A DNA stretch of 64,000 bases from Comamonadaceae bacterium (lineage in GTDB: Bacteria; Pseudomonadota; Gammaproteobacteria; Burkholderiales; Burkholderiaceae_C), in assembly GCA_947476285.1 (NCBI GenBank), contig CANJPU010000023.1, positions 1 through 64,000 on the forward strand. The letters are read 5' to 3'. Each line of letters opens with the position of its first letter. The first letter of the stretch is position 1. A program made the translations under genes and the position numbers. Below, piece by piece: positions 3,571-63,634 of this stretch. The notes below the pieces were generated by a model that was not told where the DNA came from, searched no databases, and worked only from the letters and a program-made list of their open reading frames with translations.

Positions 3571-3637
3571 GGGTGAACATGTTGGTTTGTCAGATTATTG
3601 AAGAGGCCTGCATAAATTAAAGATGCAAACCACATGA

Positions 3638-5509
<1,872 letters not shown>

Positions 5510-5576
5510 GCCAGTTCCACCAACGCATGCCGGCCCTGCGCCGGTGCGGTGCGGGGTGGACCCCAAGGAGAATTGC

Positions 5577-5882
5577 ATGAAGAGATTATGGGTGGCCAGT
5601 GCAGTGATGCTGGCTTTCGCGGCGCAGGCCGCCGCAATTGACGACACAATGACCAAGGTGGGGTGCATGGCCTGCCACACCAAGGACAAGAAATTGGTCG
5701 GGCCGGCTTTCAAGGACATCGCTGCCAAGTACAAGGGGCAGGATGCTGTGACCAAGCTGATGGAGAAGGTGCGCAAGGGCGGCTCGGGCGTGTATGGGCC
5801 GGTGCCGATGGCGCCCAATCCACCCGACAAGATCAACGACGCAGACCTCAAAGCGGCGGTGGAGTTGATCCTCAAGTCATGA
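5577..5882 (+). CDS. nirM: Cytochrome c551-type electron donor
   Basis: A 101-residue exported protein with a signal peptide ending AQAAA and a single class I heme c site CMACH (Cys30, Cys33, His34). The later GVYGPVPMAPNP supplies the axial Met (Met78) in the form typical of Pseudomonas-type c551/c8 cytochromes that pass electrons to NirS. The ATG at 5577 has AAGGAG eight bases upstream, and the gene starts 67 bases after nirS, so co-transcription is likely. The symbol is by analogy; a short NirC is an alternative. Confidence 0.8.
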   Translation: MKRLWVASAVMLAFAAQAAAIDDTMTKVGCMACHTKDKKLVGPAFKDIAAKYKGQDAVTKLMEKVRKGGSGVYGPVPMAPNPPDKINDADLKAAVELILKS

Positions 5883-33212: not shown

Positions 33213-34466
33213 ATGGGAATGACAATGGTCGAGAAGATCCTCGCGCGGGCGAGCGGTCTGGCGTCGGTGGCGCCGGGTGATGTGGTCACCGTGAACGTGG
33301 GCACGGCAGTGGTGATCGATCAGAACTTCATGCACAACCGAATGCGTGAACCCAAGAAAGTCTGGGACCCAGACAAAATCACCATCATGCTCGACCACAT
33401 CGCGCCGGCCGACAGCATCATGCGTGCCAGCATGCACAAGGGCGCGCGGCGCTTCGCGGACAAGCAGGGCATCACCCGGTTTCACGACATCAACGCCGGG
33501 CTGGGCATTGCCCATCAACTGGTCTCCGATCATGGCTACGCATTGCCCGGCACAGTGCTCGCATGCGTGGATTCACACACTTGCAGCGCCGGTGCATTCA
33601 ATTGCGCGGCGCGGGGCGTCGGGCATCCCGAGATGGCCTACATCATCGCCACAGGCCAGACCTGGTTCCCGGTGGTGCAGACCATCCGCTACGAGCTCAC
33701 CTCCAAACTGGCGCCTGCGCTCAATGCCAAGGACATCATCTTGCATATCGCCAATGAGTATGGCGATCATGCGATGCGCAATGTGGAGTTTGTCGGCCCG
33801 GGCGTGCGCAACATGAGCATGAATTCGCGCCGCACACTGGCCACCATGTGTGCCGAGATCAGCGCGGAGTTCGCGGTGTTCGAAGCCGACGATCTGTGCA
33901 TCGCGCATGTGCGCGAACGCAACCCCGGCGCCGAGTTCGAGCCGCAATTTGCCGACGCGGACGCAACCTATGCGGAGAAACGAACAGTCGACCTCGGCGC
34001 GATCGAGCCGCTGGTGGCCTACCCCGACACCATCGTGCGCAACTCCAAGCCGGTGGCCCATGCCCGCGGCGTTCGCGTCGATCAAGCATTCATCGGCTCT
34101 TGCGCCAACGGCACGCTTGATGATTTTGAAATCGCGGCGCGCATCGTCAAGGGTCGCAAGGTCGCCAAATCCACCCGGCTCATCTTGACGCCTGCCTCCC
34201 AGGGCGTGTTTCTGGAAGCAGTCAAACGCGGCTACGTGGAGACCTTGATGAGTGCGGGCGCGGTTGTGACCAACTCCACCTGCGGCGCTTGCTGCGGCTA
34301 CAGCAACGGTGTGCTGGCGCCGGGCGAAGTGTGCATCACCGCCAGCACCCGCAACTACAAGGGCAGGATGGGAAGCTCGGAGGCGCAGATCTATCTTGCA
34401 TCACCCGCCACCGTTGCCGCGTCTGCTGTGTGCGGCACGATTACCGATCCACGTGAGCTTCTGTAA
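33213..34466 (+). CDS. Module A: aconitase-family dehydratase, large subunit
   Basis: A 417-residue Fe-S hydro-lyase subunit of the short LeuC/homoaconitase type, similar in size to 2,3-dimethylmalate dehydratase (DmdA). The three 4Fe-4S cysteines are present: Cys297 (FIGSCANG), Cys357 and Cys360 (STCGACCGY). The substrate motif DSHT is intact (120-123, ACVDSHTCSAGAFN). Leucine synthesis is unlikely, since leuA/leuB are absent and a lyase gene follows. It would interconvert an unsaturated dicarboxylate and a malate-type hydroxy acid together with the next gene's product. AGGAG lies 9-13 bases before the ATG. Confidence 0.85.
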   Translation: MGMTMVEKILARASGLASVAPGDVVTVNVGTAVVIDQNFMHNRMREPKKVWDPDKITIMLDHIAPADSIMRASMHKGARRFADKQGITRFHDINAGLGIAHQLVSDHGYALPGTVLACVDSHTCSAGAFNCAARGVGHPEMAYIIATGQTWFPVVQTIRYELTSKLAPALNAKDIILHIANEYGDHAMRNVEFVGPGVRNMSMNSRRTLATMCAEISAEFAVFEADDLCIAHVRERNPGAEFEPQFADADATYAEKRTVDLGAIEPLVAYPDTIVRNSKPVAHARGVRVDQAFIGSCANGTLDDFEIAARIVKGRKVAKSTRLILTPASQGVFLEAVKRGYVETLMSAGAVVTNSTCGACCGYSNGVLAPGEVCITASTRNYKGRMGSSEAQIYLASPATVAASAVCGTITDPRELL

Positions 34467-34480
34467 GGGGAGAATTCCAT

Positions 34481-34993
34481 ATGCAATTCAAAGCCAGAAC
34501 CTGGAAATTCGGCGACAACATCAACACCGATCTCATCTTGCCGGGCTTTGCGATGCTCAAGCCGATGCAAGAGCAGGCGAAGTACGCCTTCCACGCCAAT
34601 CGGCCGGGCTGGGTGGACATGGTCAAGCAAGGCGACATCGTGGTGGGCGGCTCGAACTTCGGCACCGGCTCGGGCCGACCGGGCGCACGCTCACTGAAGG
34701 TGTGCGGCGTCTCCTGTCTGGTGGCTGATTCGATCAACGGGCTGTTCTTTCGCAACTGCGTCAACTATGGCTTGTTCGCGATGGAATGCCCTGGCGTGTC
34801 CGGCGCATTCACCGAGGGCGATGTGATGGAGGTCGACTTCGACGCATTCAAGGTCACCAATGTCACCACCGGTGTCCAACTGCAGGGCCAGCGCTTCCCG
34901 CAAATGCTGCGGGACATCATGAATGCTGGCGGCATTTATCCGCTGATGGAAGCCAGGGGATTATTGGCCGAGCCCAATCCAGAAACCGCCTGA
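34481..34993 (+). CDS. Module A: aconitase-family dehydratase, small subunit
   Basis: A 170-residue swivel-domain partner (LeuD type). FGDNINTDLILPGFAM is the family start. The substrate loop that reads GCGSSRE in aconitase/LeuD reads GTGSGRPGAR (61-70), keeping one Ser and the Arg, as in dimethylmalate/homoaconitase-like small subunits. Gap to the large subunit is 14 bases, with AAGGGGAGA as ribosome binding site. Forms a two-chain enzyme with the protein at 33213. Confidence 0.85.
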   Translation: MQFKARTWKFGDNINTDLILPGFAMLKPMQEQAKYAFHANRPGWVDMVKQGDIVVGGSNFGTGSGRPGARSLKVCGVSCLVADSINGLFFRNCVNYGLFAMECPGVSGAFTEGDVMEVDFDAFKVTNVTTGVQLQGQRFPQMLRDIMNAGGIYPLMEARGLLAEPNPETA

Positions 34994-35040
34994 GTTTGAT
35001 CGCCTGAATTCGATCGCCCTATTTGCAGGAGACACATCAA

Positions 35041-36063
35041 ATGGATGAAAGATTGCGCTGGCTCGCACAGCCGTCTGGACTTGACCGCCGCAGCATGCTG
35101 CGGCTTTGCGCGGCCACTGCTGCATCGCTCGGTCTGCCCGGTGCCAAAGCGCAAACCAGCGCCGCCTATCCGAATCGATCGATTCGCTTTGTGCTGCCCG
35201 CAGCGCCCGGCGGTACGGGTGACGCGCTGGCCAGGGTGATTGCACAGGAGCTTGCAAAGAATGTCGGTCAATCGGTGGTGATTGACAACCGCACCGGCGC
35301 AGCCGGTATCGTGGGCACTGAATTGGCCGCAAACTCTGCGCCCGACGGCTACTCGGTGCTGGTGGGAACAGCAGGCGCGATGGTGGTCAACCCGAGTCTT
35401 TACAAGAAGCTCCCATACGACTCCGTCAAGAGCTTCGAGCCGGTGGCGATCATGGCCTTCTCCCCCTTGATGCTGATCGCCAATCCGTCGCTTCCGGTCA
35501 AGACAATTGGTGACCTGATCGCATTGGCAAAGTCCAAGCCGGGGCAACTGACCTATGCCTCCGCCGGCAGCGGAAGCACGCCGCACCTGGCTGGCGAACT
35601 GTTTCGCCTGATGACAGGTGTGGATATGCTGCACGTGCCCTACAAAGGCAGTACGCCGGGCGTCACGGCGGTCATGTCGGGTGAAGCGTCGGTCATGTTC
35701 ACCGGCATCTCGTCTTGCATCGGGCAGGTCAAGGCCGGCAAGCTGCGTGGTGTGTCGGTCAACGGTGTCAAGCGTTCCTTGGCCCTGCCCGATGTGCCCA
35801 CCGCGAGCGAGTCCGGCCTGCCGGGCTTTGTGGCCGATTTTTGGTATGGCGCGTTTGTGCCTGCAGGAACGCCGCGTGCCATCGTCACCACGCTCAATAC
35901 CGAGGTGAACAAGATTCTTAACCTGGCCGAGATCAAGGACAAGCTGGTCAATCTCGGAATCGAGCCGGGCGGCGGCACTGCCGAGCAGTTGGGCGAAACC
36001 GTGCGCAAGGATCGGGACCGTTGGGCCGATGTGATCAAGACTTCAGGCATGAAGGTTGATTGA
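35041..36063 (+). CDS. Bug-family periplasmic solute receptor 6 (module A)
   Basis: A 340-residue receptor. The long N-terminus holds a Tat-like RR motif (GLDRRSMLRLCAATAASLGL) before cleavage near AKAQ, then YPNRSIRFVLPAAPGGTGD. CAGGAGAC precedes ATG 35041. Inserted between dehydratase and lyase in module A, so its ligand is probably the substrate of those enzymes, a di- or tricarboxylate. Confidence 0.87.
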   Translation: MDERLRWLAQPSGLDRRSMLRLCAATAASLGLPGAKAQTSAAYPNRSIRFVLPAAPGGTGDALARVIAQELAKNVGQSVVIDNRTGAAGIVGTELAANSAPDGYSVLVGTAGAMVVNPSLYKKLPYDSVKSFEPVAIMAFSPLMLIANPSLPVKTIGDLIALAKSKPGQLTYASAGSGSTPHLAGELFRLMTGVDMLHVPYKGSTPGVTAVMSGEASVMFTGISSCIGQVKAGKLRGVSVNGVKRSLALPDVPTASESGLPGFVADFWYGAFVPAGTPRAIVTTLNTEVNKILNLAEIKDKLVNLGIEPGGGTAEQLGETVRKDRDRWADVIKTSGMKVD

Positions 36064-36111
36064 GCGGCAGACCCAGTCAACAAGCAACAACAACACCAGC
36101 AGGAGTCGGAT

Positions 36112-36990
36112 TTGAAACCCACCACCAAGTTACGCGAGCTGCTCGCCCGGCCTGGAATCATCACGCTGCCCGGCGCATACGATTGCATCGGAGCGCGATT
36201 CATCGAATCGGAAGGGTTCCCCGCCGCGTACATGACGGGGGCCGGCACGGCCGCAGCCCGCACCGGCCGGCCTGACGTTGGGCTGATCACGATGAGCGAG
36301 ATGGTTGACAACGCGCGCAGGATGGCACGGGCTGTTGATATTCCGATGATCGTCGATGCCGACACCGGCTATGGCAACGTGCTCAACGTCATGCGCACGG
36401 TCGAGGAATTCGAAGCCGCTGGCGTCGCCGCGATTCAAATCGAAGATCAGGTCTTCCCCAAAAAGTGCGGCCACTACGAAGGCAAGCAGGTCATTCCCGC
36501 CGATGAGATGGTGCAGAAAATCCGCATGGCCGTGGACACCCGGCGCGACAAGGATCTGGTCGTCATCGCGCGAACCGACGCCATCGCGGTCAAGGGCTTT
36601 GATGACGCAATGGCGCGGGCCCGCGCCTACGATGAAGCTGGCGCGGATGTGCTGTTCATCGAGGCACCGCGCACGCTGGAGCAAATCAAAACCATCGGAA
36701 GCTCGTTCAAGAAGCCACTTTTGTTCAACATGGCCACCAGCGGCAAGACGCCGATGCTCAGTACCCAGGAGATGGAGGCTTACGGTTTCAAGATTGCGCT
36801 TTTTGCCGGAACCGGCATGTACATGTTCGCCCACGTGATGCAAAACTTTCTTCGCGATCTGGCCAAGACCGGCAGCTTCGAGCAGCACAGGGATCAGATG
36901 ATGCCCTTCACCGAGTTGTGGAAGATCATGGGTTCGGCTGACATCGAACGCATGGAGCAGACTTACGGCGTGAGCGCAGGGCGCGAGTGA
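36112..36990 (+). CDS. Module A: isocitrate lyase/PEP mutase-family lyase
   Basis: A 292-residue TIM-barrel enzyme starting at TTG (CAGGAG upstream). The motif KKCGH (117-121, in FPKKCGHYEGK) holds the catalytic Cys of 2-methylisocitrate lyase, dimethylmalate lyase and relatives; metal-site acids are in VDADTGYG (81-88) and IEDQ (110-113). It would split a 2-hydroxy dicarboxylate, for example 2,3-dimethylmalate to propionate and pyruvate. With the dehydratase it repeats the logic of the last steps of nicotinate fermentation or of AcnD/PrpB. Exact substrate not determinable. Confidence 0.85.
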   Translation: MKPTTKLRELLARPGIITLPGAYDCIGARFIESEGFPAAYMTGAGTAAARTGRPDVGLITMSEMVDNARRMARAVDIPMIVDADTGYGNVLNVMRTVEEFEAAGVAAIQIEDQVFPKKCGHYEGKQVIPADEMVQKIRMAVDTRRDKDLVVIARTDAIAVKGFDDAMARARAYDEAGADVLFIEAPRTLEQIKTIGSSFKKPLLFNMATSGKTPMLSTQEMEAYGFKIALFAGTGMYMFAHVMQNFLRDLAKTGSFEQHRDQMMPFTELWKIMGSADIERMEQTYGVSAGRE

Positions 36991-52233: not shown

Positions 52234-53781
52234 CTATCGAGCCTGGTGCTTCCAGTACGGCGCGCGCATCTGGGCTTTGAGCACCTTGCCCGCCGCCGAC
52301 AGCGGCAACGCGTCCCGAAATTCAACGCTGCCAGGGCACTTGTAGCCCGCAATGGATTGGCGGCAATGGGCGGTGATCTGATCGAGCGACAGAGTTTGGC
52401 CCGGGCGAAGAACCACGACCGCGTGCACCCGCTCGCCCCATTGGTCATCGGGCACACCGATCACCGCGCAGGCCGACACCTGTGCCATGCTTGAGATGGC
52501 GTTCTCCACTTCTGCGGAGTAAACATTCTCGCCGCCGGTCACGATCATGTCCTTGATGCGGTCCACCACGAACAGAAAGCCGTCGTCGTCCATGTAGCCG
52601 CCATCGCCGGTGTGCATCCAGCCATCACGCAGCGCCTGGGCGGTCTGCTCGGGTTTGTTCCAGTAGCCGGCCATCACGGTGGGGCCGCGCACGGTGATCT
52701 CGCCCACGGTGCCATTGGGCACGGGCTGCCCTTGCGGATCGACGATGCGCATTTCCACTGCCGGCATCGGGCGCCCGGCTGAGCGCAGCTTATTGGGGCG
52801 CCCGGCGTCGGGTTTGTGGCACCAGTCAGGCAGCACGGTCGCGGCGGGCGACAACTCGGTCATGCCATAGATCTGCCAGAAGCCCGCCTGCGGCAAGGCC
52901 TTGAGGGCGCTGGCCAGCAAGCCGCCGTCAATCGGCGCCGCGCCATACAGCAGCATGGCCAGGCTGGACAAGTCGTACTGCGCCAGGCGGGGGTGCTCGA
53001 TGATGCGCTTGAGCATGGTCGGCACGATGAAGGTCTCGGTGCCGCGCTCTTTCTCAATCGCGTCGAGCACCGCAGTCTCATCGAACGAGGGCAGTATCAC
53101 CTGCTGGCGCAGGCTCATCATGACCTGCAGCGTCAGGCCCGTGCCGCCCACATGGAACATCGGCGCAGTCTGAATGCACACCGAATCGCGGGCGCGGGGA
53201 ATGGCAGCCAAGGCGTTGAGCGAGTTCGTGTACATGTTGGCGTGCGTGAGCATCACGCCCTTGGGCAAGCCGGTGGTGCCGCCGGTGTACATGATGGCGG
53301 CCAGGTCGGCGCCGCTGCGCATTGCGTCGGGCACCGGCGCCGCATGAGCCAGCAGCCCCTCATAGCTGGCCATGCCCTCGGGCGGCGCGCCGTCCCCGGT
53401 GTGAATCAGGGTGCGCAGACTGGTCGAGAGTTTGAGCAGCTCAGTGCCCTGGGCCGCGAAGGTGTCGTCCACCAGCAGGATGCGGGTGTCGCAGTCATCG
53501 AGCGAATAGGCGACCTCCTTGGGGCTCCAGCGGATGTTGACCGGGTTGACCACCCCGCCGGCCCACCAGACGCCGTAGAGAAATTCGAGGAAGCGGTCGG
53601 AGTTCAGGCTCATCATGCCGACGCGCTCGCCCGGTTGCAGGCCCAGGCCGCGCAGCGCCCCGGCCAGCCGCGCGACCCGGTCGGTCAACTGTGCGAAGCT
53701 GTGCCTGCGCGCGCCAAACACCACCGCCGTGGCGTGGGGGCATTCAAGCAAGGATTTGTGAAGAGCTTGAGTGAGGTACAT
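52234..53781 (-). CDS. Long/medium-chain-type acyl-CoA ligase
   Basis: A 515-residue ANL-superfamily ligase. Seen are MYTGGTTGLPKGVMLTHANM (ATP loop), IYGMTELSPAATVLPDW, GDGGYMDDDGFLFVVDRIKD and VTGGENVYSAEVENAISSM, and the C-terminal catalytic Lys in LSAAGKVLKAQMR. The start at 53781 gives the common opening MYLTQALHKSLLECPHATAV; an in-frame TTG at 53814 with AAGGA upstream is an alternative and would overlap the neighbour. Substrate unknown. Confidence 0.86.
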   Translation of the reverse strand: MYLTQALHKSLLECPHATAVVFGARRHSFAQLTDRVARLAGALRGLGLQPGERVGMMSLNSDRFLEFLYGVWWAGGVVNPVNIRWSPKEVAYSLDDCDTRILLVDDTFAAQGTELLKLSTSLRTLIHTGDGAPPEGMASYEGLLAHAAPVPDAMRSGADLAAIMYTGGTTGLPKGVMLTHANMYTNSLNALAAIPRARDSVCIQTAPMFHVGGTGLTLQVMMSLRQQVILPSFDETAVLDAIEKERGTETFIVPTMLKRIIEHPRLAQYDLSSLAMLLYGAAPIDGGLLASALKALPQAGFWQIYGMTELSPAATVLPDWCHKPDAGRPNKLRSAGRPMPAVEMRIVDPQGQPVPNGTVGEITVRGPTVMAGYWNKPEQTAQALRDGWMHTGDGGYMDDDGFLFVVDRIKDMIVTGGENVYSAEVENAISSMAQVSACAVIGVPDDQWGERVHAVVVLRPGQTLSLDQITAHCRQSIAGYKCPGSVEFRDALPLSAAGKVLKAQMRAPYWKHQAR

Positions 53782-53810
53782 TGCTGCTGGCAAGAGGCAC
53801 GAGTTGTCTT

Positions 53811-54452
53811 TCAACGTCCTTCGGAGAAGTCTTCGGCGAGTGCCTTCACTTTTTGAAGCTTGCCCTGCGCAAGCGCTGCGAGCGGCGTTTCACCCGAAAG
53901 GGAGCCTCTCCGATTCAGAAAGAACTGAAGCTTGGCCCCGCCAGGCAAGTCCCCCAAAGCCTTTGAGGCGGCTTCAAGCTGTGAGCGCTGATAAGCTGGG
54001 TCGGCAAAGAATGCAGGGAAGTACCGGTCGCCTTTGAAATCGACGTAGAAGACCCGATTGGCGGCCAGCGCTTTGCTGAGCGCCTGCCGCGTCCAGCCGA
54101 GTGCCACCGCAAATTGGGCAGATGCAAGCAGCTCCCCGCGTTCGACCATGGAGTCGAGCTTCGCGCGAACTGCAGCTGGCTGAGAGCCGACTTCATGCGC
54201 CTGCGCTCGCGGCGAAGACCCGGCTGCTGCCTCTTCTTTGGGTTCGGCGTCAATCTCCACCGCAATTTCGTGAATGGTGCGCTCAAGCCGGCGCAACAGC
54301 TGCAGGTATGAGCGCTTGCGCGCGTGGCGGACGACCCCCCCAGTCCTGAAGGCCTTCTTCACTTGTCCAGCAGTCCCATTGAGGGACCTGGCCTCATCGA
54401 AGAAAGTCTTGAGGGTCCGTTCAGCTTTTGCTTCAACGGCAGCGTTGGTCAT
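53811..54452 (-). CDS. Hypothetical protein with possible ParS/MbcA-like C-terminus
   Basis: A 213-residue soluble protein. An N-terminal helical part with TFFDEARSLNGTAGQVKKAF, a charged linker (about 75-105), and a C-terminal part ending FFLNRRGSLSGETPLAALAQ then GKLQKVKALAEDF, which resembles the short DUF2384/ParS-MbcA antitoxin tail where a GxTPLxxL turn is typical. No RES toxin gene is adjacent. The strong promoter at 54481-54508 puts the transcript start after the first in-frame ATG, so I use ATG 54452. Lies next to a transposase remnant, so horizontal origin is possible. Confidence 0.5.
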   Translation of the reverse strand: MTNAAVEAKAERTLKTFFDEARSLNGTAGQVKKAFRTGGVVRHARKRSYLQLLRRLERTIHEIAVEIDAEPKEEAAAGSSPRAQAHEVGSQPAAVRAKLDSMVERGELLASAQFAVALGWTRQALSKALAANRVFYVDFKGDRYFPAFFADPAYQRSQLEAASKALGDLPGGAKLQFFLNRRGSLSGETPLAALAQGKLQKVKALAEDFSEGR

Positions 54453-54480
54453 GGTGCTTCGCTTCAGAGTGTTGGCGCTC

Positions 54481-54508
54481 AGTATAGCAACCATGTCTAC
54501 ATTGTCAA
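54481..54508 (-). promoter_or_regulatory. Strong sigma-70 promoter of the gene at 53811-54452
   Basis: On the minus strand TTGACA (54508-54503), a 16-base spacer and TATACT (54486-54481): a full consensus -35 and five of six -10 bases, the best promoter match in the window. It lies about 30 bases before ATG 54452. Confidence 0.65.
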
Positions 54509-54517
54509 CCAAGTTAA

Positions 54518-54828: not shown

Positions 54829-55707
54829 ATGAAAAAGACCGCGATGATGAGAAAGGCTCTGCAGGAGGAGTCCTTGCTGGTGACGGCGGGTGTGCATGAT
54901 GCGCTCAGTGCGAAGCTGGTGGAGGCTGCGGGATTCAAATTCGCTTTTCTCTCCGGATTCGGGTTTGAAGCCAGCTTGCTGGGCAAGCCTGACGTCGGCC
55001 TGCTTACGATGATGGAGATCGTCAACCATGCCCGCAACATCGATTCGGCAGTCAACATACCTGTGCTGGCTGATGCGGAGGCAGGGTATGGGGGGCCGTC
55101 CAACATTCAGCGCACGGTGCGCGAATTCGAGAAATCAGGCATTGCGGGCATCTTCATCGAAGATCAACCGCACCCCAATTTTTGCGGCAGCCTGAAGAAA
55201 TTCAAGAAGCTCATCCCAGCGGACCACATGGTGATGAAAATCAAGTGTGCGATCGAGGCACGCGAAGACCCGGACTTCATCATTTGCGCGCGCACCGATG
55301 CGGACATCGTGTCCATGCAGGAGCAGATCGATCGCTGTCATGCGTATCTGGAGGCCGGCGCCGATTTCGTGACCGCCCTGCCTGCGACCAGAGAAGAATT
55401 TCAGATGCTCGCCGATCAGGTGAAGGCACCGCTGTGGCTTTACCTGCATGCCCAAAGTGATGTCACCCCCGATGAGCTCAGGGCCATGGGAATCAAGGGC
55501 ATTGTGGTTTACCCGGTAGAGCCCTTGTTTGTCGCAACCCATGCCATGATGGGATTGCTCAAAGAGCTGAAGGAAAAGGGTACGGTCAAGGAGACCTTCG
55601 ATAAAGGCAATGTGATCAACTACAAAGAGTTCTTCAGCCTCATCAACCTTCGAAGTGTCATTGATGTGGAAAGCAGGTACCCTTACCTTGAAGATAAACG
55701 CAACTGA
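54829..55707 (+). CDS. Module B: isocitrate lyase/PEP mutase-family lyase, divergent active site
   Basis: A 292-residue TIM barrel, the same length as the module A lyase and alignable without gaps through residue 121. The loop KKCGH of module A reads NFCGS here (117-121): the catalytic Cys119 is kept, but the flanking basic residues and His are lost. The metal motif DADTGYG reads DAEAGYG (Glu84 for Asp, Ala85 for Thr). The Cys favours lyase over phosphonomutase chemistry, with a different substrate. AGGAGACATA precedes the ATG. First gene of module B. Confidence 0.83.
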   Translation: MKKTAMMRKALQEESLLVTAGVHDALSAKLVEAAGFKFAFLSGFGFEASLLGKPDVGLLTMMEIVNHARNIDSAVNIPVLADAEAGYGGPSNIQRTVREFEKSGIAGIFIEDQPHPNFCGSLKKFKKLIPADHMVMKIKCAIEAREDPDFIICARTDADIVSMQEQIDRCHAYLEAGADFVTALPATREEFQMLADQVKAPLWLYLHAQSDVTPDELRAMGIKGIVVYPVEPLFVATHAMMGLLKELKEKGTVKETFDKGNVINYKEFFSLINLRSVIDVESRYPYLEDKRN

Positions 55708-55721
55708 CTAGGTGCACTGCC

Positions 55722-56963
55722 ATGGGCTATACGATTTCTCAGAAGATATTGGCCAGAGGCTGCGGACGAGAATCCGTGCAGCCCGGTGAGATCATCTATG
55801 CCAAGCCCGATCTGCTGTGGCTGTACGACTGGCATGGCTTTGACGGCCTGATCCGCAACATCAACATCGACCCCGACAAGGTCGCGCTCAACATCGACCA
55901 CTACTTCTCGCCCAGCAGCGAGAACGTTGCCAAACTGCATCAGAACTTCCGCAACACCGTCAAGAAATACGACATCAAGAAGTTCTACGATGTCGGGCGT
56001 GGCGGCATCGGCTTTCACCTGTTCGCCGAGGAAGGTCATATCCGGCCGGGCATGCTGATCATGCACATCGACCCGCATGTCAGCACCATGGGTGCACTGG
56101 GCGCCTACTGCGTGGGTGTAGGCGGCGACGTGATGGCGGGCTTCATGACCGGCGAGATCTGGCTGCGTGTGCCAGAAACCTTGAAGGTCACGCTGACCGG
56201 GAAGTTCAGAAACGGCGTGACCAGCCGCGATGTGTTCGAGCGGCTGCTGCACGATCTGGGGCCCGATGGTGCCCAGGGCAAGGTGATCGAATTCACCGGC
56301 CCCGCCATCCGCGAGATGAGCATAGAAGGCCGGCTGGTGCTGTGCAATTCGGTGCAATACCTCTCCGCGGAAACCGCAATCGTTGCCGGCGACGAGATCA
56401 CCCGCGACTACCTCAAGGACAAGACCGACATTGCCTACGAGATGGTGCAAAGCGACCCGGACGCGGTGTACGCGCAGGAAGTGAGCTACGACGTCTCCGA
56501 GATCGAACCCATGGTGGTCACGCCGCCCGATGTCTTCTACATCAAGCCGGTGACCCAGGTGGTGGGCAGAAAGATCAACCAGGCCTTTATAGGCACCTGC
56601 GCCGGCGGCAGGCTGGAAGACCTGCGCGTCGCAGCCCAGATCCTCAAGGGCAAGAAGGTGCATCCCGATGTGCGCTTCCTGGTCTTTCCCATCACGCCCA
56701 AGACTCACCGCGATGCGAGCAAGGAAGGCCTGATCGACATCTTGGTCGAGGCCGGTGCCATGATAGGGCCGTCCACCTGCGGCCCGTGCTTTGGTGGGTT
56801 TGCCCAGTTGCTGGCGGGCGAGACCTGCATCTCCACCGGCACCATGAATGTTGCAGGACGCATGGGCAGCGTGCAGGCGGAAATCTTCATGGGGAATGCG
56901 GCCACTGTGGCGGCCTCGGCATTGACCGGGGAAATCACTGACCCGCGCGCGTTTCTGTCGTAG
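55722..56963 (+). CDS. Module B: aconitase-family dehydratase, large subunit
   Basis: A 413-residue short LeuC-type subunit. Cluster cysteines are present: Cys293 (FIGTCAGG), Cys353 and Cys356 (STCGPCFGG). The DSHT substrate motif is changed to DPHV (117-120, in MHIDPHVSTMGALG). Its N-terminal third has little likeness to module A. Together with the next gene it would form a two-chain Fe-S hydro-lyase for a different dicarboxylate. Gap to the lyase is 14 bases. Confidence 0.83.
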   Translation: MGYTISQKILARGCGRESVQPGEIIYAKPDLLWLYDWHGFDGLIRNINIDPDKVALNIDHYFSPSSENVAKLHQNFRNTVKKYDIKKFYDVGRGGIGFHLFAEEGHIRPGMLIMHIDPHVSTMGALGAYCVGVGGDVMAGFMTGEIWLRVPETLKVTLTGKFRNGVTSRDVFERLLHDLGPDGAQGKVIEFTGPAIREMSIEGRLVLCNSVQYLSAETAIVAGDEITRDYLKDKTDIAYEMVQSDPDAVYAQEVSYDVSEIEPMVVTPPDVFYIKPVTQVVGRKINQAFIGTCAGGRLEDLRVAAQILKGKKVHPDVRFLVFPITPKTHRDASKEGLIDILVEAGAMIGPSTCGPCFGGFAQLLAGETCISTGTMNVAGRMGSVQAEIFMGNAATVAASALTGEITDPRAFLS

Positions 56964-57004
56964 GCCACTGCTGCACCCATCAAACTCGGAGGAAAACGCG
57001 ACTC

Positions 57005-57517
57005 ATGGAAAGACTATTCAAGGGCAAGACAGTTTGGCAGTTCGGTGATAACTACAACGCCGATCTGATCGTGGGCTCCAAGCACATTGGCACCACCGAC
57101 CGTGATCTGCTGGGAAAAGTCTGCCTGGCAGACTACGACCCAGAATTCACAGCCAAGATTTCTCCTGGCGACTTGATGATCGCAGGCAAGAATTTCGGTT
57201 ACGGCCACCCGCATTACCAGGGCATCATCTCTCTGCAGATGAACCGCATCTCCACGCTCATCGCGGAGTCCTTCTATCCGCTGTGGTACCGCGTTGCTGT
57301 TTTCTATGCGTTCCCGGCGATTGTCTGCCCCGGCATTAGTCAAGCCGCGAAGCTGGGCGACGAGCTGGCCGTCAATGTCGAGACCGGGAAGATCGACAAC
57401 CTCAGCACCGGAGTCAGCTTGCAGGGCGAGCCGGTGCATCCCTCGTTGCTGGAAATCATGGAAGACGGCGGTCTGCCGGCGCATCTCAAGAAAAGGGCGG
57501 CCAAGCAGGCCGCATGA
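57005..57517 (+). CDS. Module B: aconitase-family dehydratase, small subunit
   Basis: A 170-residue LeuD-type swivel domain (QFGDNYNADLIVG at the start). The substrate loop, GCGSSRE in most relatives and GTGSGRP in module A, reads GYGHPHYQG (65-73): the Ser acting as base in aconitase and the Arg binding the carboxylate are both gone, with two His instead. The rest of the fold is intact (VFYAFPAIVCPGI, LSTGVSLQGEP). GGAGG precedes the ATG. Unlikely to be an isopropylmalate isomerase subunit. Confidence 0.82.
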   Translation: MERLFKGKTVWQFGDNYNADLIVGSKHIGTTDRDLLGKVCLADYDPEFTAKISPGDLMIAGKNFGYGHPHYQGIISLQMNRISTLIAESFYPLWYRVAVFYAFPAIVCPGISQAAKLGDELAVNVETGKIDNLSTGVSLQGEPVHPSLLEIMEDGGLPAHLKKRAAKQAA

Positions 57518-57562: not shown

Positions 57563-59146
57563 ATGTTGCAACTCTATAAAACCGGTCGCCGCATGGCCTT
57601 GGCGCTTGTCGTGGCCAGCGCCGCCATTTGCCTGCCCGCCAGTGCCCGTGATCTGCGGGTGGCGATGCCGATCGAGGCCACATCGATCGACCCGGCCGCC
57701 ATGATCCAGCCCTACAACGGCTCGATCAGTCTGCATCTGTTCGATGGCTTGATTCGGCGGCGCCCCGACATGAAACTGGAGCCCGGGCTTGCCACGGCTT
57801 GGAAGCCGATCACCGACACCACCTGGGACTTTGAGCTGCGCCAAGGCGTCAAGTGGCACGACGGCAGCGATTTCACTGCGGCCGACGTGATCGCCACCAT
57901 CGAGCGGATCAAGGCGCTCGACGTGCCGGTGTCGTTTCGGCTCTACACCAGCACCATCGATCTGATGACCTCGCCCAACCCGCACACCCTGCGCATCCGC
58001 ACCAGCGTGCCCGATCCTTTGCTGCCGGGCAAGATGTCTTTCCTGTTCATCACGCAGGCCAAGGCCAAGACCGCCACCAGTGCCGAGTTCAACAGCGGCG
58101 CCGCCGCCATCGGCACCGGGCCCTACAAGTTCACCGAGTATGTCCCCGGCCAGCGCATGGTGTTCAGCAAGTTCCCCGGCTACTGGGGCGGCGCGCCCGC
58201 ATTCGACCGCATCATTTTCAGCACGGTGCCCAATGAGGCGTCACGTGTCGCGGCATTGTTGTCAAACGGTTCCGATCTGATCATCGATCTGTCACCCGAC
58301 AGCGTCGGGCAGTTGAAGACAAACAAGGCGCTGAACGTAGCGGTCGGCCCGCAGGACCGTGTCATCAGCATGTTCTTTAATTTTGGCGACACCACCAAGT
58401 ATGTGAGCAGCATCGATGGCAAGCCGCTGGCCACCAACCCCTTCAAGGATATTCGCGTTCGGCGCGCCTTCAGTAAAGCGATTGACCGCGATGCGATCTT
58501 GAACCGAGTGCTCGACGGCATGGGCCGCAAGGAAGGGCAGATTTTCCCGAGCGGCTATGCAGGTACCTCGCCGACACTCAAGCCGGAAGCTTACGACCTG
58601 CCGGGCGCGCGCGAGCTGATGAAGCAAGCAGGCTTCCCTTCCGGCTTTGCCTTGACGGTGCAGTGCACGGCCGGCCGCTTCATGCGTGACAAGGAAGTGT
58701 GCGAAACAGTGGCCGCCATGCTCTCGCAGATCGGCGTGAAAGTCACGGTGCAGGCCATGCCCTTTGCGGTGCACACCAAGGAGCGACTGACGCGTCAGCT
58801 TAACTTCTACATGTACAGCGGTGGCACAGGCTGGGGTGAAATTCTCAGCACCTTCATCGCTGTTGCGCCCACGCAGAACCCCGCCGCTCGCCTGGGCAGT
58901 GCCAACTCATTCAACTACTCCAACCCGGAGGTGGATCGCCTGCTGATAGGCGCCACCCGCACCATTGACGACAAGACACGCTGGGCGGCGCAGGCCAAGG
59001 CCATGGAAATCCTGATTCGTGACGACGTTGCCGCAGTGCCGCTGTTTCGCCAGAGTTCGATCGCCGCGAGCAAGAAAGAGCTGAGTTACCAGACGCGTGA
59101 GGACGGCATGTTCAACGCCCTGCATGTGAAGGTGGTGGGCAAGTAA
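57563..59146 (+). CDS. Module B: ABC transporter solute-binding protein (family 5)
   Basis: A 527-residue periplasmic protein of the peptide/nickel/opine-binding type. Signal peptide ends PASARD; DLRVAMPIEATSIDPAAMIQ, WDFELRQGVKWHDGSDFTAAD and DIRVRRAFSKAIDRDAILNR are family signatures. It delivers a ligand to the permeases encoded next. Position after the lyase/dehydratase genes suggests the ligand is their substrate or a conjugate (for example an amide or opine). AAAGGAGAC precedes the ATG. Confidence 0.88.
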   Translation: MLQLYKTGRRMALALVVASAAICLPASARDLRVAMPIEATSIDPAAMIQPYNGSISLHLFDGLIRRRPDMKLEPGLATAWKPITDTTWDFELRQGVKWHDGSDFTAADVIATIERIKALDVPVSFRLYTSTIDLMTSPNPHTLRIRTSVPDPLLPGKMSFLFITQAKAKTATSAEFNSGAAAIGTGPYKFTEYVPGQRMVFSKFPGYWGGAPAFDRIIFSTVPNEASRVAALLSNGSDLIIDLSPDSVGQLKTNKALNVAVGPQDRVISMFFNFGDTTKYVSSIDGKPLATNPFKDIRVRRAFSKAIDRDAILNRVLDGMGRKEGQIFPSGYAGTSPTLKPEAYDLPGARELMKQAGFPSGFALTVQCTAGRFMRDKEVCETVAAMLSQIGVKVTVQAMPFAVHTKERLTRQLNFYMYSGGTGWGEILSTFIAVAPTQNPAARLGSANSFNYSNPEVDRLLIGATRTIDDKTRWAAQAKAMEILIRDDVAAVPLFRQSSIAASKKELSYQTREDGMFNALHVKVVGK

Positions 59147-59182: not shown

Positions 59183-60166
59183 ATGTTGTCTTACCTGGCC
59201 CGGCGGCTTGCATCTTCGGTTGCGACGCTCTTTGTTATCGCCGGGCTGGTGTTCCTGGCGATGTTCGCGGTGGGCGATCCGGTGCAGATTCTGGCGCCGG
59301 CCGATGCGAATGCAGAGGACATCGAGCGCATTCGCACGAGCCTCGGTCTGGACCGATCGATGCTGGAGCAGTTCATTCTGTTCTTCCAGAACGTCTTCAC
59401 CGGTCACCTGGGCGAATCGTTCGTCTATAAGCGCCCGGTGGTGGACGTCATCATGGAGCGGCTTCCCGCCACGCTGGAGCTCGCCCTGGTGGCCTTCGTC
59501 TTCGCGGTGCTGGTGGGCATTCCGCTGGGCATGTATGCCGGCGTCAAGCCCGATGGCCGGCCAGCGCGGGCCATTATGGCCTTGTCGCTGGTGGGCATCA
59601 GCCTGCCGTCATTCTGGATAGGCATTTTGCTGATGCTGGCCTTCGGGGTCGGGCTGGGCTGGCTGCCCACGGGCGGGCGCGGCGAGACTGCCAGTGTGCT
59701 GGGATTGAGCCTCAGCATCTTCACCGCGGATGGATGGGCCCATATCATTTTGCCCGCGCTTAATCTGGCACTGTTCAAGATTGCGCTGGTGATCCGCATC
59801 ACCCGCGCGGGGGTGCGCGAGATCTTGCCGCTGGACTACATCCGATTCGCGTATTGCAAGGGCCTTTCACCGGCGCGGGTTTATGGCATTCATGTGCTCA
59901 AGAACCTGATGATTCCGGTTGTGACGGTGCTGGGAATCGAGCTGGGCAATCTCATCGCCTACACCACCATTGTCGAGACGATTTTTTCCTGGCCAGGCAT
60001 CGGCAAGTTGCTGATCGACTCCATCAATCTGGTGGACCGTCCGGTGATCGCGATCTACACCTTGTTTGTGATCACCGTATTCTTGATCCTCAACCTATTG
60101 GTCGATCTTGCCTATGTGGTGCTGGACCCGCGTGTGCGTCTTCCTGGCTCGGGGGCCGGGGCATGA
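59183..60166 (+). CDS. Module B: ABC transporter permease, DppB/OppB type
   Basis: A 327-residue inner-membrane protein with six helices. MLSYLARRLASSVATLFVIA is the usual start, and the cytoplasmic EAA-like loop reads YIRFAYCKGLSPARVYGIHV followed by LKNLMIPVVTVLG. Pairs with the next permease, whose start overlaps its stop. Confidence 0.88.
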   Translation: MLSYLARRLASSVATLFVIAGLVFLAMFAVGDPVQILAPADANAEDIERIRTSLGLDRSMLEQFILFFQNVFTGHLGESFVYKRPVVDVIMERLPATLELALVAFVFAVLVGIPLGMYAGVKPDGRPARAIMALSLVGISLPSFWIGILLMLAFGVGLGWLPTGGRGETASVLGLSLSIFTADGWAHIILPALNLALFKIALVIRITRAGVREILPLDYIRFAYCKGLSPARVYGIHVLKNLMIPVVTVLGIELGNLIAYTTIVETIFSWPGIGKLLIDSINLVDRPVIAIYTLFVITVFLILNLLVDLAYVVLDPRVRLPGSGAGA

Positions 60167-61059
60167 GTGCCGTGGTGAGCGCGGCCCCAGAGGGTTTTTG
60201 GCACCGGACGCTGCGGCGCTTCACGCGCAGCCCGGATGCGGTGGTCGCCGGCGTGGTGCTGCTGATCTTGCTGGCACTGGCGATTCTGGCGCCCTGGGTG
60301 GCACCGCAAGACCCCTATGACCTTACCCAATTGAGCGTGATGAACAGCCGGCTGCCGCCGATGTCGCGCGGAGCCGATGGCGTTCTGTATCTGCTGGGCT
60401 CGGATCAGCAAGGGCGCGAGATGCTCAGCGTGATGCTCTACGGCTTGCGCGTGAGCTTGTTCGTTTCTTTCACCAGCGTGGGCATCGGCTTGGCCATCGG
60501 CATTGTGCTGGGCTTGCTGGCGGGCTTCAACGGCGGCCTGCTTGATGCCGCCATCATGCGCGTGGTCGATGTGCAGCTGGGCATACCGGCCATCTTGCTG
60601 GCCATCATCATCCTGGCGGTGCTGGGCCAGGGCATAGACAAGACCATCGTGGCCATCACGCTCACGCAGTACGCCTACTTCACCCGCACGGTGCGCGGCG
60701 CGGTGCTGGTCGAGCGGCAGCGCGACTATGTGCTGGCCGCGCAGGGGCTGGACATCGGGCCCGTGCGCATCTTGTTCCGGCACATCCTGCCCAATTGCCT
60801 GCCGCCGGTGATCGTGGTGGCCACGCTGCACACCGGCGGTGCCATCGCACTGGAGGCCACGCTCTCGTTCCTGGGCCTGGGCGTGCCGGTGACGCAGCCC
60901 TCGCTGGGCATGGTGATCGCCAATGGCTTTCAGTACCTGATGAGCGGGCGCTACTGGATCAGCTTTTTCCCCGGCGTGCTGCTGATGGTGCTGGTGATTG
61001 CCATCAACCTGATCGGAGACCGCCTGCGCGACATTCTCAACCCGAGGCTGCAGGCCTGA
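60163..61059 (+). CDS. Module B: ABC transporter permease, DppC/OppC type
   Basis: A 298-residue permease, ATGA-overlapped with the first. N-terminal RRFTRSPDAVVAGVVLLILL, the periplasmic LGSDQQGREMLSVMLYGLRV segment, and the EAA loop YVLAAQGLDIGPVRILFRHI with LPNCLPPVIV are characteristic. It ends in NPRL, as DppC proteins do. Confidence 0.88.
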   Translation: MSAVVSAAPEGFWHRTLRRFTRSPDAVVAGVVLLILLALAILAPWVAPQDPYDLTQLSVMNSRLPPMSRGADGVLYLLGSDQQGREMLSVMLYGLRVSLFVSFTSVGIGLAIGIVLGLLAGFNGGLLDAAIMRVVDVQLGIPAILLAIIILAVLGQGIDKTIVAITLTQYAYFTRTVRGAVLVERQRDYVLAAQGLDIGPVRILFRHILPNCLPPVIVVATLHTGGAIALEATLSFLGLGVPVTQPSLGMVIANGFQYLMSGRYWISFFPGVLLMVLVIAINLIGDRLRDILNPRLQA

Positions 61060-61110
61060 GCAGGGCGCGGCCCCCAACCCTTTCACACCACTTCACTCTG
61101 GAGTTTGCAC

Positions 61111-61626
61111 ATGGCCCGCATACCGTATGTCGACAGCGAGAACTGCCACTGGCTGACCAAGGAAATCCTGGCCCGACGCAACAACCGCAACATCCACCGC
61201 ATGCTGGGGCATTCGGGGCCGGTGGGCGACGCCTTCGTGCGCCTGGCGGTGACGCTGCGCTACGAATGCGATCTCGACCCCATCCTGCGCGAGCTGGCGA
61301 TACTGCGCACCGGCATGCTGTCGGGCGCCACCTACGAGGTGCGCGCGCACAAGAAGATCGCGCTGCGCTTTGGCATGACGCAGGAGCAGCTGGACAAGCT
61401 GGAGGCAGGCGACATGGAAGGCGGCGGCTTCACCGAGCTGCAGAGGAACGTGGTCGCCTTCACCGATGATCTGGTCAAGAACGTGCGCGCGTCCGACTCC
61501 ACCTTCAAGCCGCTGGCTGCCGTGCTGGGCGAGCGGGCCATGGTGGAACTGGTGATCACCATCGGCTACTACATGTCGGTGTGCCGCTTCCTGGAAACCT
61601 TCGACGTGGACGTCGACCCTTCGTGA
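61111..61626 (+). CDS. Carboxymuconolactone decarboxylase/AhpD-fold protein
   Basis: A 171-residue all-helical protein. RELAILRTGMLSGATYEVRAH matches the CMD signature, with the His present but the two redox cysteines of AhpD absent, so a peroxidase role is unlikely. TGGAG sits eight bases before ATG 61111. It is inserted between permease and ATPase genes of the ABC transporter, so it probably acts on the transported compound or an early product. Confidence 0.8.
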   Translation: MARIPYVDSENCHWLTKEILARRNNRNIHRMLGHSGPVGDAFVRLAVTLRYECDLDPILRELAILRTGMLSGATYEVRAHKKIALRFGMTQEQLDKLEAGDMEGGGFTELQRNVVAFTDDLVKNVRASDSTFKPLAAVLGERAMVELVITIGYYMSVCRFLETFDVDVDPS

Positions 61627-61642
61627 CGCAGGCCGCCCGCCC

Positions 61643-63634
61643 ATGACCCAGCCCGTGCTCTCGGTGCAGAACCTGTCCGTCGCCTTCGACGCGCAGGGTG
61701 GGGCGGTGCGCGTGGTCGAGGATGTGTCTTTTGATCTGAATCGCGGGCAGGCGATGGGGCTGGTGGGCGAGTCCGGCTCAGGCAAGACCATGATCGGGCT
61801 CTCGGCGATGCGTCTGGTGCCGCATCCGGGTCGAATCGCAACAGGCACGATCAAGCTCGATGGCATTGACATCATGTCGCAGGGCGAGGCGCAGATGCGC
61901 GCCGTGCGTGGCTCTCAGATTGCGATGGTGCTGCAAGACCCAATGACCTCGCTCAACCCCACTCTGACCATCGGCACCCAGATGATAGAAGCGGTTCGGG
62001 CGCATTCTCAGGTGTCTGCGCCACAGGCGCGCGAGCGGGCGCGCGATGCCCTTGGCAAGGTGGGCATCAACAATCCAGAGGAAAGACTGGACGCCTATCC
62101 CCATCAGTTTTCGGGTGGTATGCGACAGCGCGTGGCCATCGCCACGGCCATGATCAACCGGCCCAAGGTGCTGATCGCAGATGAGCCGACCACTGCGCTG
62201 GACGTCACCATACAGGCGCAGATACTGGCCGAGGTGCGCAAGCTGTGCCAGCAAGAGGGCACGGCGCTGCTATGGATATCGCATGATCTCGCGGTGGTCT
62301 CCGGCCTTGTCGACAAGGTGGGCGTGATGTACGCCGGCCAGCTTGCCGAGTGCGGGCCCATTCACGATGTCATTCACCAACCCAGGCATCCGTACACCAG
62401 CGGCCTGATTGCCTCGATTCCAGACCGCACTCCCTCGGGCCATCGCTTGCCGCAGATTTCAGGCATGGTGCCGCCGCCCTCGGCCTGGCCACAGGGCTGC
62501 CGTTTCGCGCCGCGCTGCTTCCAGGCCAGGGCCGCCTGCAGCGAGCCACCGCCTCTGGCCTTGCTTGATGGCAGCCGCCTGGTGCGATGCTTCTTTCCGC
62601 TGGCGCCAAGCGGCGATCGGGCAGCGCGCGCGCCGCTTGCTCAGCCGCAGGCAGAACCGAGTGTCCAGCCCGTTCTGATCGAGGTTGAACAGGTGACCAA
62701 GACCTTTCGGCGCAGCGCGTCGCTCCTGAGCAAGCTTGCACACATGGCTTTGGCCAAGCGGCCGGACGCGATGCCGGCGCTCGATCGCGTGAATCTGAAA
62801 GTCCACAAGGGCGAGGTGCTTGGCATTGTCGGCGAGTCGGGAAGCGGAAAGTCCACTCTGGCCCGCATTCTGGTGGGCATGATGGAGCCTGACTCAGGCA
62901 CGGTTCATCGCCATCTGCGGCGTGCAAGTGGGCGCCTGGGCGCGCAGATGATCTTTCAGGATGCGATGGCTTCGCTCAATCCCAGGCAGTGGGTTGGGCA
63001 GGCAATTTCAGAGGCGCCATTGCTGCACGGAATATGGGGGCAAGAGGAAGCGGCGGCCAGGCTGGAGGCGCTGCTGCTGCAGGTGGGCATTGATCCGGGT
63101 TACGCCACGCGCTATCCACATCAATTCTCCGGCGGTCAGCGCCAGCGCATCGCCATCGCGCGCGCGCTGGCGGTCGAGCCCGAGGTGCTGATTTGCGATG
63201 AGGCAGTGGCGTCACTGGATGTGTCCATTCAAGCGCAGATCATCAACTTGCTCGCCGATTTGCGAAAGTCGCTCGATCTCACCTATGTGTTCATAGGGCA
63301 CGATCTGGGTGTCGTGCGCCATGTGAGCGATCGGGTGCTGGTGATGTACCTTGGGCGCATCGTGGAAGAGGGCAGGGTGGGTGATGTATTCAACTCTCCT
63401 GCGCATCCCTACACACAGGCGCTGGTTGCAGGCGCACCCAGGGTCGACAAAGTCGCGCCACCCGATGAGATGAAAGTGCCTTGGGTCGACCTGTCGCGCG
63501 TGCCGGTCTCCGGCTGCGGCTATGCGCCGCGATGTCAACACGCGACAGCGCAGTGCAGCGCACAAGTGCCAGAGCTCCAATCGATTGGAGCGGAACGTCG
63601 TGTTGCGTGTTTTGTTGCGGGAGCCTGCGCATGA
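61643..63634 (+). CDS. Module B: fused ABC transporter ATPase (DppD-DppF)
   Basis: A 663-residue protein with two nucleotide-binding domains in one chain, replacing the usual two ATPase genes. Domain 1: Walker A GESGSGKT (42-49), signature FSGGMRQRVAIATAM, Walker B VLIADEPTTALD. Domain 2 (from about 345): GESGSGKST, FSGGQRQRIAIARAL, VLICDEAVASLD. Each is followed by the oligopeptide-type C-terminal segment with cysteines (GCRFAPRC, GCGYAPRC). Energises the permeases at 59183 and 60163. Confidence 0.9.
   Translation: MTQPVLSVQNLSVAFDAQGGAVRVVEDVSFDLNRGQAMGLVGESGSGKTMIGLSAMRLVPHPGRIATGTIKLDGIDIMSQGEAQMRAVRGSQIAMVLQDPMTSLNPTLTIGTQMIEAVRAHSQVSAPQARERARDALGKVGINNPEERLDAYPHQFSGGMRQRVAIATAMINRPKVLIADEPTTALDVTIQAQILAEVRKLCQQEGTALLWISHDLAVVSGLVDKVGVMYAGQLAECGPIHDVIHQPRHPYTSGLIASIPDRTPSGHRLPQISGMVPPPSAWPQGCRFAPRCFQARAACSEPPPLALLDGSRLVRCFFPLAPSGDRAARAPLAQPQAEPSVQPVLIEVEQVTKTFRRSASLLSKLAHMALAKRPDAMPALDRVNLKVHKGEVLGIVGESGSGKSTLARILVGMMEPDSGTVHRHLRRASGRLGAQMIFQDAMASLNPRQWVGQAISEAPLLHGIWGQEEAAARLEALLLQVGIDPGYATRYPHQFSGGQRQRIAIARALAVEPEVLICDEAVASLDVSIQAQIINLLADLRKSLDLTYVFIGHDLGVVRHVSDRVLVMYLGRIVEEGRVGDVFNSPAHPYTQALVAGAPRVDKVAPPDEMKVPWVDLSRVPVSGCGYAPRCQHATAQCSAQVPELQSIGAERRVACFVAGACA

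Follow-up and report, generated by a model that had tools for sequence, protein, structure and literature searches.

The nicotinate fermentation of Eubacterium barkeri is said to employ a dimethylmaleate hydratase, DmdAB, together with a 2,3-dimethylmalate lyase, Dml. In aconitase, the carboxylates of the substrate are contacted by Arg447, Arg644, Ser643, and Ser166. PMC8184944 assigns the role of general base in the isomerising branches of aconitase to Ser642, describes the roles of the iron-sulfur (Fe-S) cysteines, finds over 15 of 20 active-site residues to be shared by the other aconitase branches, and states that aconitase X (AcnX) retains a serine base homologous to Ser642. For lyases of the PEPM/isocitrate-lyase (ICL) superfamily, the roles of counterpart residues, including Cys191 and Asp108 of isocitrate lyase, are given in PMC7609661, and roles of counterparts also in PMC11982470. 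Here, we describe a triad of genes encoding a PEPM-type lyase and the large and small subunits of a LeuC/LeuD-like dehydratase, located in a 64,000-nucleotide stretch of DNA from a Comamonadaceae bacterium (contig CANJPU010000023.1, positions 1 to 64,000, assembly GCA_947476285.1; hereafter, "the window"). Active-site motifs are replaced in all three proteins, and the recurrence of matched replacements in other bacteria suggests a pathway in which an acid is degraded.

The lyase gene (54829..55707, + strand) encodes 292 amino acids (aa); its open reading frame (ORF), as listed, opens at 54658, and homologues fit the start at 54829 instead. The protein belongs to the PEPM/ICL superfamily (PF13714; 153.7 vs. 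31.5 bits) and has the petal death protein (1zlp) as its best match in the Protein Data Bank. It is followed by the large-subunit gene (55722..56963, +; 413 aa), whose product belongs to the aconitase superfamily (PF00330; 227.7 vs. a gathering threshold of 28.7 bits) and to the broad PRK00402 subfamily (NF001614; 420.6 vs. 385), and narrowly misses the large-subunit model of the homoaconitate hydratase family (TIGR01343; 384.6 vs. 385.7). The small subunit (57005..57517, +; 170 aa) matches no Pfam family and falls within the LeuD/DmdB subfamily (TIGR02087; 117.4 vs. 108.95). An earlier note on this DNA had reported the motifs NFCGS, DAEAG, DPHV, and GHPHYQG in these proteins, and all four are present, in ORFs whose Pfam or NCBIfam families we confirmed. 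The triad also misses the cut-off of each equivalog examined: the LeuC models (TIGR02083, 359.8 vs. 610.65; TIGR00170, 180.1 vs. 560.25), the LeuD model (TIGR02084, 100.6 vs. 245.85), the homoaconitase models NF040615, NF040604, and NF040625 (318.7 vs. 550; 87.8 and 102.9 vs. 230), the PrpB model (TIGR02317, 211.2 vs. 354.4, with NFCGS where KRCGH is expected), and the models for PEP mutase, phosphonopyruvate hydrolase, and CPEP mutase (TIGR02320, 108.8 vs. 319.55; TIGR02321, 113.1 vs. 374.4; TIGR02319, 173.1 vs. 420.05). AcnX (PF04412) is likewise missed, at 19.9 vs. 31.5 bits. The same window carries a second set, module A (LeuC, 33213-34466; LeuD, 34481-34993; lyase, 36112-36990), which is of the ordinary type, with DSHT, GSGRP, DADTG, and KKCGH all present. 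Judged by eye, two TctC-like genes lie next to module A (33213-36990).

Residues of the dehydratase were mapped by alignment to bovine aconitase (1c96, whose chain index plus one we take to be the usual aconitase numbering) and to methanogen isomerase subunits, the Asp100/His101 pair and the small-subunit sites being placed via the isomerase alignments. Nine of the 17 mapped positions are kept in the window, namely Asp100, His101, Asp165, His167, Asn258, Arg452, and the cluster ligands Cys358, Cys421, and Cys424 (Cys293, Cys353, and Cys356 in the window). The other positions are replaced. In the large subunit, His147 becomes Phe98, Ser166 becomes Pro118, Glu262 becomes Tyr213, Asn446 becomes Thr374, and Arg447 becomes Met375 (56844..56846, +); DSHT reads DPHV within the stretch H-I-D-P-H-V (56064..56081, +; residues 115-120), which has also gained His115. 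The same subunit reads IDPHVS, GTCAGGR, and CGPCFGG. In the small subunit, the loop GHPHYQG (57203..57223, +; GYGHPHYQG in context) stands in place of GSSREHA, so that Ser642, Ser643, and Arg644 are replaced by His68, Pro69, and His70, with His68 at the site of the general base in the alignment to 3vba and others. The loss of the GSSRE loop, to which the earlier note had drawn attention as a substrate contact, is therefore real, but a mere change in binding is not an adequate description, because the loop carries Ser642. By alignment, the replacements go beyond substrate contacts: the general base itself is lost.

In the lyase, the Mg, proton-shuttle, acid, and product-binding positions are occupied by Asp55, Asp82, Glu84 (Asp elsewhere), Glu111, Cys119, and Arg155, of which Asp55, Asp82, Glu84, and Glu111 are the Mg ligands expected of the PEPM/ICL superfamily and Cys119 is the catalytic cysteine. 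NFCGS (55177..55191, +; residues 117-121) replaces KKCGH/KRCGH, with loss of both the Lys and the His and retention of Cys119. As the earlier note had stated, the three Fe-S cysteines and lyase Cys119 are thus retained. Its inclusion of DADTG among the motifs that contact the substrate was mistaken; DADTG is a Mg-binding motif, and its change to DAEAG (55072..55086, +; residues 82-86) brings in a Glu that is confined to the window-type lyases described below.

To collect relatives, a small-subunit profile and two peptide patterns (one of them NFGYGHPH) were searched against 84,980 species genomes, which gave 449 stretches, 278 of them encoding relatives, and the best 80 of the 278 were analyzed. 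GHPH is present in all 80, a count that the pattern favors, and the 80 comprise Pseudomonadota (45), Actinomycetota (29), Bacillota (3), Chloroflexota (1), Thermodesulfobacteriota (1), and one unassigned. Three of them, all metagenome-assembled genomes (MAGs), are of the same type as the window: L041 from Deltaproteobacteria (74% identity in the small subunit, 80% in the large subunit, and 82% in the lyase), L042 from Chloroflexi (63% small, 62% large), and L043 from Desulfobacteraceae (56% small, 64% large, and 64% lyase). The other 77 constitute a sister group, in which the lyase mostly reads KRCP or KSCP and the large subunit FDGH(V/I)S, apart from L120 (FDTHIS) and L102, whose large subunit is cut.

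Groups were set by the small-subunit motif (GHPH or Ser-type) and, because the GHPH relatives were partly picked by the NFGYGHPH pattern, linkage was tested by the partner proteins alone. A large subunit lies in the same piece for 89 of 90 GHPH small subunits (all but L102), and DSHT is lost in every one of the 89. Such numbers refer to sequences, some of which come from species that are close relatives, and not to independent events. The site reads FDGHVS in 45, FDGHIS in 39, IDPHVS in two, ADPHVS in two, and FDTHIS in one. A PEPM-type lyase was found within 8 kb of 87 of the 90 small subunits, the loci without one in the piece being L035, L042, and L059, and none of the 87 keeps CGH: the site reads CP- in 80, CGS in two, CAA in two, CGT in one, and CGA in one, and is broken in the last (L106). 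Among Ser-type small subunits of this first survey (with L009 omitted as a duplicate of L184), the nearby lyase has CGH in 10/11. In a second survey, of 74 small subunits in 71 pieces that overlap with the first, 26 Ser-type small subunits had a lyase no more than 6 kb away, and CGH was kept in 24 of these. The non-Ser small subunits with a lyase in that survey were those of the window (CGS) and of L178 (GKHLEG, with KKCGA in the lyase); no lyase was in range of 26 Ser-type small subunits, 19 other non-Ser ones, and one GHPH (L035). The change of large subunit and lyase along with GHPH, a co-occurrence that the earlier note had proposed to examine, is therefore seen across at least five named phyla, and a scattered, unlinked distribution of the motifs is ruled out by the partner-protein counts in both surveys.

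Support for the idea that the three genes travel together came from their arrangement. In all 86 sets with the three genes in range, they share a strand; two gene orders occur, in 53 and 33 sets, and the lyase lies less than 500 bp from the LeuCD-like pair in 76 of these sets and 1.2-4.7 kb away in the other 10. Among 31 GHPH triads, the distance matrices of the proteins correlate with r of 0.943, 0.934, and 0.899, and 0/2000 permutations reached such values, species kinship being uncorrected. On this evidence, the motif changes in the three proteins are linked and recur as a set in other bacteria.

The replacements in the dehydratase are equally uniform. His115 is found in 89/89 GHPH large subunits vs. 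0/52 of the Ser-type (Gly in 41), the Glu262 position holds Phe or Tyr in 89/89 vs. Glu in 52/52, and Arg447, present in 52/52 of the Ser-type, gives way to Leu or Met in 89/89. Each Fe-S cysteine is kept in all 89, as are the equivalents of His101/Asp100, Asp165/His167, and Arg452, and His60 together with His115-x-Asp117-x-His119 is invariant. His147 is kept in 85/85 of the sister group and is Phe in 4/4 of the window type. As far as residues can tell, the GHPH clade has exchanged a Ser-Arg-Glu site for a more hydrophobic, histidine-rich one. In the accompanying lyases, the equivalents of Asp58, Asp85, Asp/Glu87, Glu115, Cys123, and Arg158 are kept in 86/87, the exception being the broken L106. 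The change from Asp to Glu occurs in 3/3 window-type lyases and as DAEDG in genome G100; sister-group lyases have Asp there in 83/84, the remaining one being a broken piece. AlphaFold2 models of single, ligand-free chains place both dehydratase subunits in the isopropylmalate isomerase folds: the small subunit (predicted local distance difference test score, pLDDT, 96.2) is closest to 3vba, with a template modeling (TM) score of 0.91, and the large subunit (pLDDT 88.3) to 4kp1/4kp2 (TM 0.90-0.91).

Trees were built for each of the three proteins. A branch (94/93, not starred) sets the GHPH small subunits, those of the window type included, apart from the others, with E. coli LeuD outside the group. 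In a quick tree of large subunits, the window type stands beside the sister group, with the divergent L040 and L181. For the lyases, a 47-row tree separated the two GHPH groups, although a single clade was not rejected (approximately unbiased [AU] test, p 0.267); when seven sister-group rows were removed and other lyases added to give a 54-row set, the window type and the sister group formed one clade (91/65, not starred), and E. coli PrpB and the module A lyase lay outside it. The first lyase trees had suggested a separate co-loss in each GHPH group, a reading that we dropped in view of the AU result and the 54-row clade. Nor are L120 and L178 supported as separate events (AU p 0.35; 0.376 and 0.315 with the 54-row set). 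Together with the distance and strand data, the trees would fit a triad that is a single old unit, inherited and transferred together.

Several observations weigh against the co-inherited catabolic unit proposed below. The share of GHPH among the relatives is uninformative, given that some were found with the NFGYGHPH pattern. The GHPH clade may represent one event, so that independent co-changes would be few. The lyase of L042 (DAEDG, PVRCGA) lies on the same contig as its small subunit but ~9.6 kb away and on the opposite strand. Two of the 26 Ser-type small subunits with a lyase in the second survey have a GKR(K/R)TQ PEPM homologue nearby instead of a CGH lyase. Lastly, the 19 non-Ser small subunits without a lyase within 6 kb in the piece indicate that loss of the serine is not dependent on a lyase.

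Among named strains, GHPH-type loci are present in Variovorax, Nocardia, Rhodococcus, and Neobacillus. The sister group is widespread, and sets of the window type turned up nowhere but in the window and the three MAGs. At E 1e-30, the window type was found only in the window-type genomes G099, G100, and G101 themselves among 155 (L041 class), 294 (L042), and 291 (L043) genomes, the latter two sets being samples of larger groups; at E 1e-28, it was absent from a sample of 399 genomes of the window's own order, where five other matches are 38-43% identical. The window triad shows 74-82% identity to a Deltaproteobacteria MAG vs. ~40% within its own order, which would be explained most simply by horizontal transfer across distant phyla; contamination of one of the two assemblies may be an alternative origin. 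In 4-kb steps, the guanine-cytosine content is 0.60-0.61 at the triad, a little under the 0.61-0.65 of the rest of the window.

Other divergent sets and proteins were also noted. In the window's own genome, L178 (C52, 6172-9516) is a second non-Ser set, with KKCGA in the lyase, ADTQGP and ENWPGRMGS in the large subunit, and GKHLEG in the small subunit; it may represent a separate instance of this linkage. The same genome holds L181 (C80:12000-18350), where a large subunit with NDGHTT and CNYPGRMGS is followed by two small-subunit-like frames (3381-5836 overall), one with FGYGHDHDHA and one with DPHQ, the Ser motif being absent from both. It also holds L128 (C59), a PEPM-type protein with KRVSG in which the catalytic Cys is gone. 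The GKR(K/R)TQ PEPM proteins near Ser-type small subunits (L186, 10522-13245; L245, 2787-3848) lack the catalytic Cys as well. Further non-Ser LeuCD-like pairs of the window's order have GGGGKT(V/I)EGP with NESHTP (L003-L008, L010, L011, L036, L037), HHNHVEV with DEGNIA (L039, L040, L194), GKAH/GKPH with D(M/P)HC (L038, L190, L199), and GPKM(N/Q)G/GQKATG with ND(R/T)H (L187, L191, L195, L256); none has a lyase within the pieces examined, several of which span only ~3.5 kb.

The linkage and the replacements are established, as are the retention of the Fe-S, Mg, and Cys residues and, from the models, the dehydratase folds. A histidine base, a missing carboxylate, the order in which the two enzymes act, and import are inferred. 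The reading that we favor, with some reservation, is that the triad is a co-inherited catabolic unit in which a His-base [4Fe-4S] hydro-lyase and a Mg-dependent C-C lyase act on an imported acid that is one carboxylate short. Because the cysteines, Asp100-His101, and Asp165-His167 are kept, the LeuC/LeuD-like pair would retain Fe-S hydro-lyase chemistry, dehydrating or isomerising the acid at the open-site Fe. The missing Ser642 calls for a new base, and His68 or His70 of the small subunit may replace the serine alkoxide. With Arg447, Arg644, Ser643, and Ser166 lost, the pocket would no longer have the arginine and serine side chains that usually hold a second and a third carboxylate, and the substrate is thus probably one carboxylate short, with a neutral or hydrophobic group in its place; these losses fit the earlier note's suggestion that the substrate may be without the usual carboxylate arrangement. 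The lyase would then cleave the resulting 2-hydroxy acid to a 2-oxo acid and a second product by a Mg-dependent retro-Claisen or retro-aldol reaction, with Cys119 as the acid, the half of the site for the 2-oxo-acid product kept, and that for the leaving half altered.

The neighborhood was clustered for 85 GHPH loci, with the identity of each cluster taken from one member. An IclR-type regulator lies within 5 kb in 64/85 loci, a transporter gene in 68/85, and an AMP-forming acyl-CoA ligase in 30/85; the transporters, with overlaps, are TctC receptors (28), branched-chain amino acid (BCAA)-type ATP-binding cassette (ABC) transporters (19), major facilitator superfamily proteins (18), and tripartite ATP-independent periplasmic (TRAP) transporters (7). 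At several Burkholderiales loci (L061, L081, L095, L115), the clustering finds a regulator, the triad, and a TctC receptor alone, which suggests a short route of import, dehydration or isomerisation, and cleavage. In the window, the triad is followed by a solute-binding protein (SBP_bac_5; 57563..59146, +; PF00496, 287.8 bits), the first gene of a transporter that continues with dipeptide/nickel-type ABC permeases and fused ATPases (59183..63634, +; ORFs and Pfam); a CMD-family protein (61105-61626; Pfam) is encoded inside this run. An acyl-CoA ligase gene (AMP-binding; 52234..53814, -; Pfam and clustering) is divergent from the triad, and its product shares a broad cluster with ligases near other triads, a link that is uncertain. 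Just upstream of the triad is a 233-aa frame (53811-54512, -) without a Pfam match. Beside TRAP-linked triads of Roseovarius and Aestuariivita, there is a protein of ~550 aa (L075, 10334-12025; also L070, L074, L083), of which the L075 member has no Pfam match.

These neighbors do not identify the substrate. HpaB-family genes occur within ~7 kb of triad genes at all three window-type relatives (L041, 1-1197 and 16521-18038; L042, 2733-4226; L043, 5221-6822), and no NCBIfam model placed them; they were dropped as a clue, given that HpaB matches number 3, 6, and 9 in those genomes, and that no match in the window's genome exceeds the cut-off. Genes for FAD_binding_4 (3/85), FAD_binding_2 (4/85), and alpha/beta hydrolase (5/85) proteins are too rare to serve.

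The transporters bear on the alternative that survives best, namely that the triad is an ordinary dicarboxylate isomerase-lyase pair of the Dmd/Dml kind, in which residues were swapped and the type of substrate is unchanged. The folds are the same, the gene content is that reported for the Dmd/Dml system, and TctC, BCAA-type, or TRAP transporters stand near many loci. However, the Arg447 and Glu262 positions are altered in 89/89 to a narrow set of residues, which is unlike drift, and both motif sets are retained in Ser-type triads, of which the window's own genome has three. We regard this alternative as rather unlikely. Less probable still is a hydro-lyase that hydrates a 4-oxo-2-enoic acid or amide, with the lyase splitting the 2-hydroxy-4-oxo product by a retro-aldol reaction in which the carbonyl would be the electron sink. 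The retained Mg and Arg158 residues and the loss of the CGH His in the 87 GHPH-linked lyases are compatible with such a scheme, and a FAA-hydrolase gene adjoins the L035 pair and an amidohydrolase gene lies near the L033 set; but these neighbors were noted at one locus each. That the pair is no longer a hydro-lyase, its invariant His60, His115-x-Asp117-x-His119, and loop His68 and His70 holding a second metal for another reaction, or making it a non-catalytic partner of the lyase, accords with the absent serine but is very improbable, since all 89 large subunits retain the Fe-S cysteines together with the counterparts of His101/Asp100, Asp165/His167, and Arg452.

Returning to the co-inherited unit with a histidine base, a histidine where Ser642 is usual and linked changes in a second enzyme would together amount to a new catalytic variant, in a branch spanning at least five named phyla, and to an unassigned catabolic route. 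A broader proposal, to which we give a little less than even credence, is that a widespread His-triplet branch of aconitases replaced the Ser642 base and the Arg447/Arg644 carboxylate clamp in lock-step with a lyase without the His of CGH, as a second design of [4Fe-4S] hydro-lyase serving a complete import-dehydrate-cleave route for a class of acids without the usual second carboxylate. We found no account of a LeuCD-like dehydratase without the serine that works with a lyase of this kind in the one open-access library searched, subscription papers being mostly outside the search, and the pathway can be called undescribed, as the earlier note had suggested, to that extent. Generic annotation conceals the function of the triad: in two annotated plasmid records, the genes are named "aconitase family protein", "3-isopropylmalate dehydratase", and "isocitrate lyase/PEP mutase family protein". 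Its presence in the named Variovorax, Nocardia, Rhodococcus, and Neobacillus strains makes the question directly testable.

Compared with the archaeal-type isopropylmalate/citramalate isomerase and homoaconitase (MJ0499, 4kp1/4nqy; MJ1003, 4kp2; small subunits 3vba, 2pkp, and 1v7l), the dehydratase pair has the same two-subunit layout, folds, Fe-S cysteines, Asp100/His101, and Arg452. Unlike those enzymes, it has no DSHT, Arg447, or GSSRE, its Glu262 and (in the window type) His147 are replaced, and it has gained His115, His68, and His70. The lyase resembles PrpB, isocitrate lyase, and the petal death protein in family, Mg ligands, Cys, and the Arg158 equivalent, and differs from the KKCGH/KRCGH of PrpB-type enzymes in having NFCGS (window) or mostly KRCP/KSCP (sister group). 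The Dmd/Dml system reportedly combines, like the triad, a LeuCD-like hydratase with a PEPM-type lyase. AcnX (PF04412), with its cis-3-hydroxy-L-proline (C3LHyp) and mevalonate 5-phosphate (MVA5P) dehydratases, is a precedent for a branch that acts on other substrates and has lost most of the sites of mitochondrial aconitase (mAcn), as described in PMC8184944; according to the same paper, AcnX keeps its serine base (Ser70), unlike the GHPH pair.

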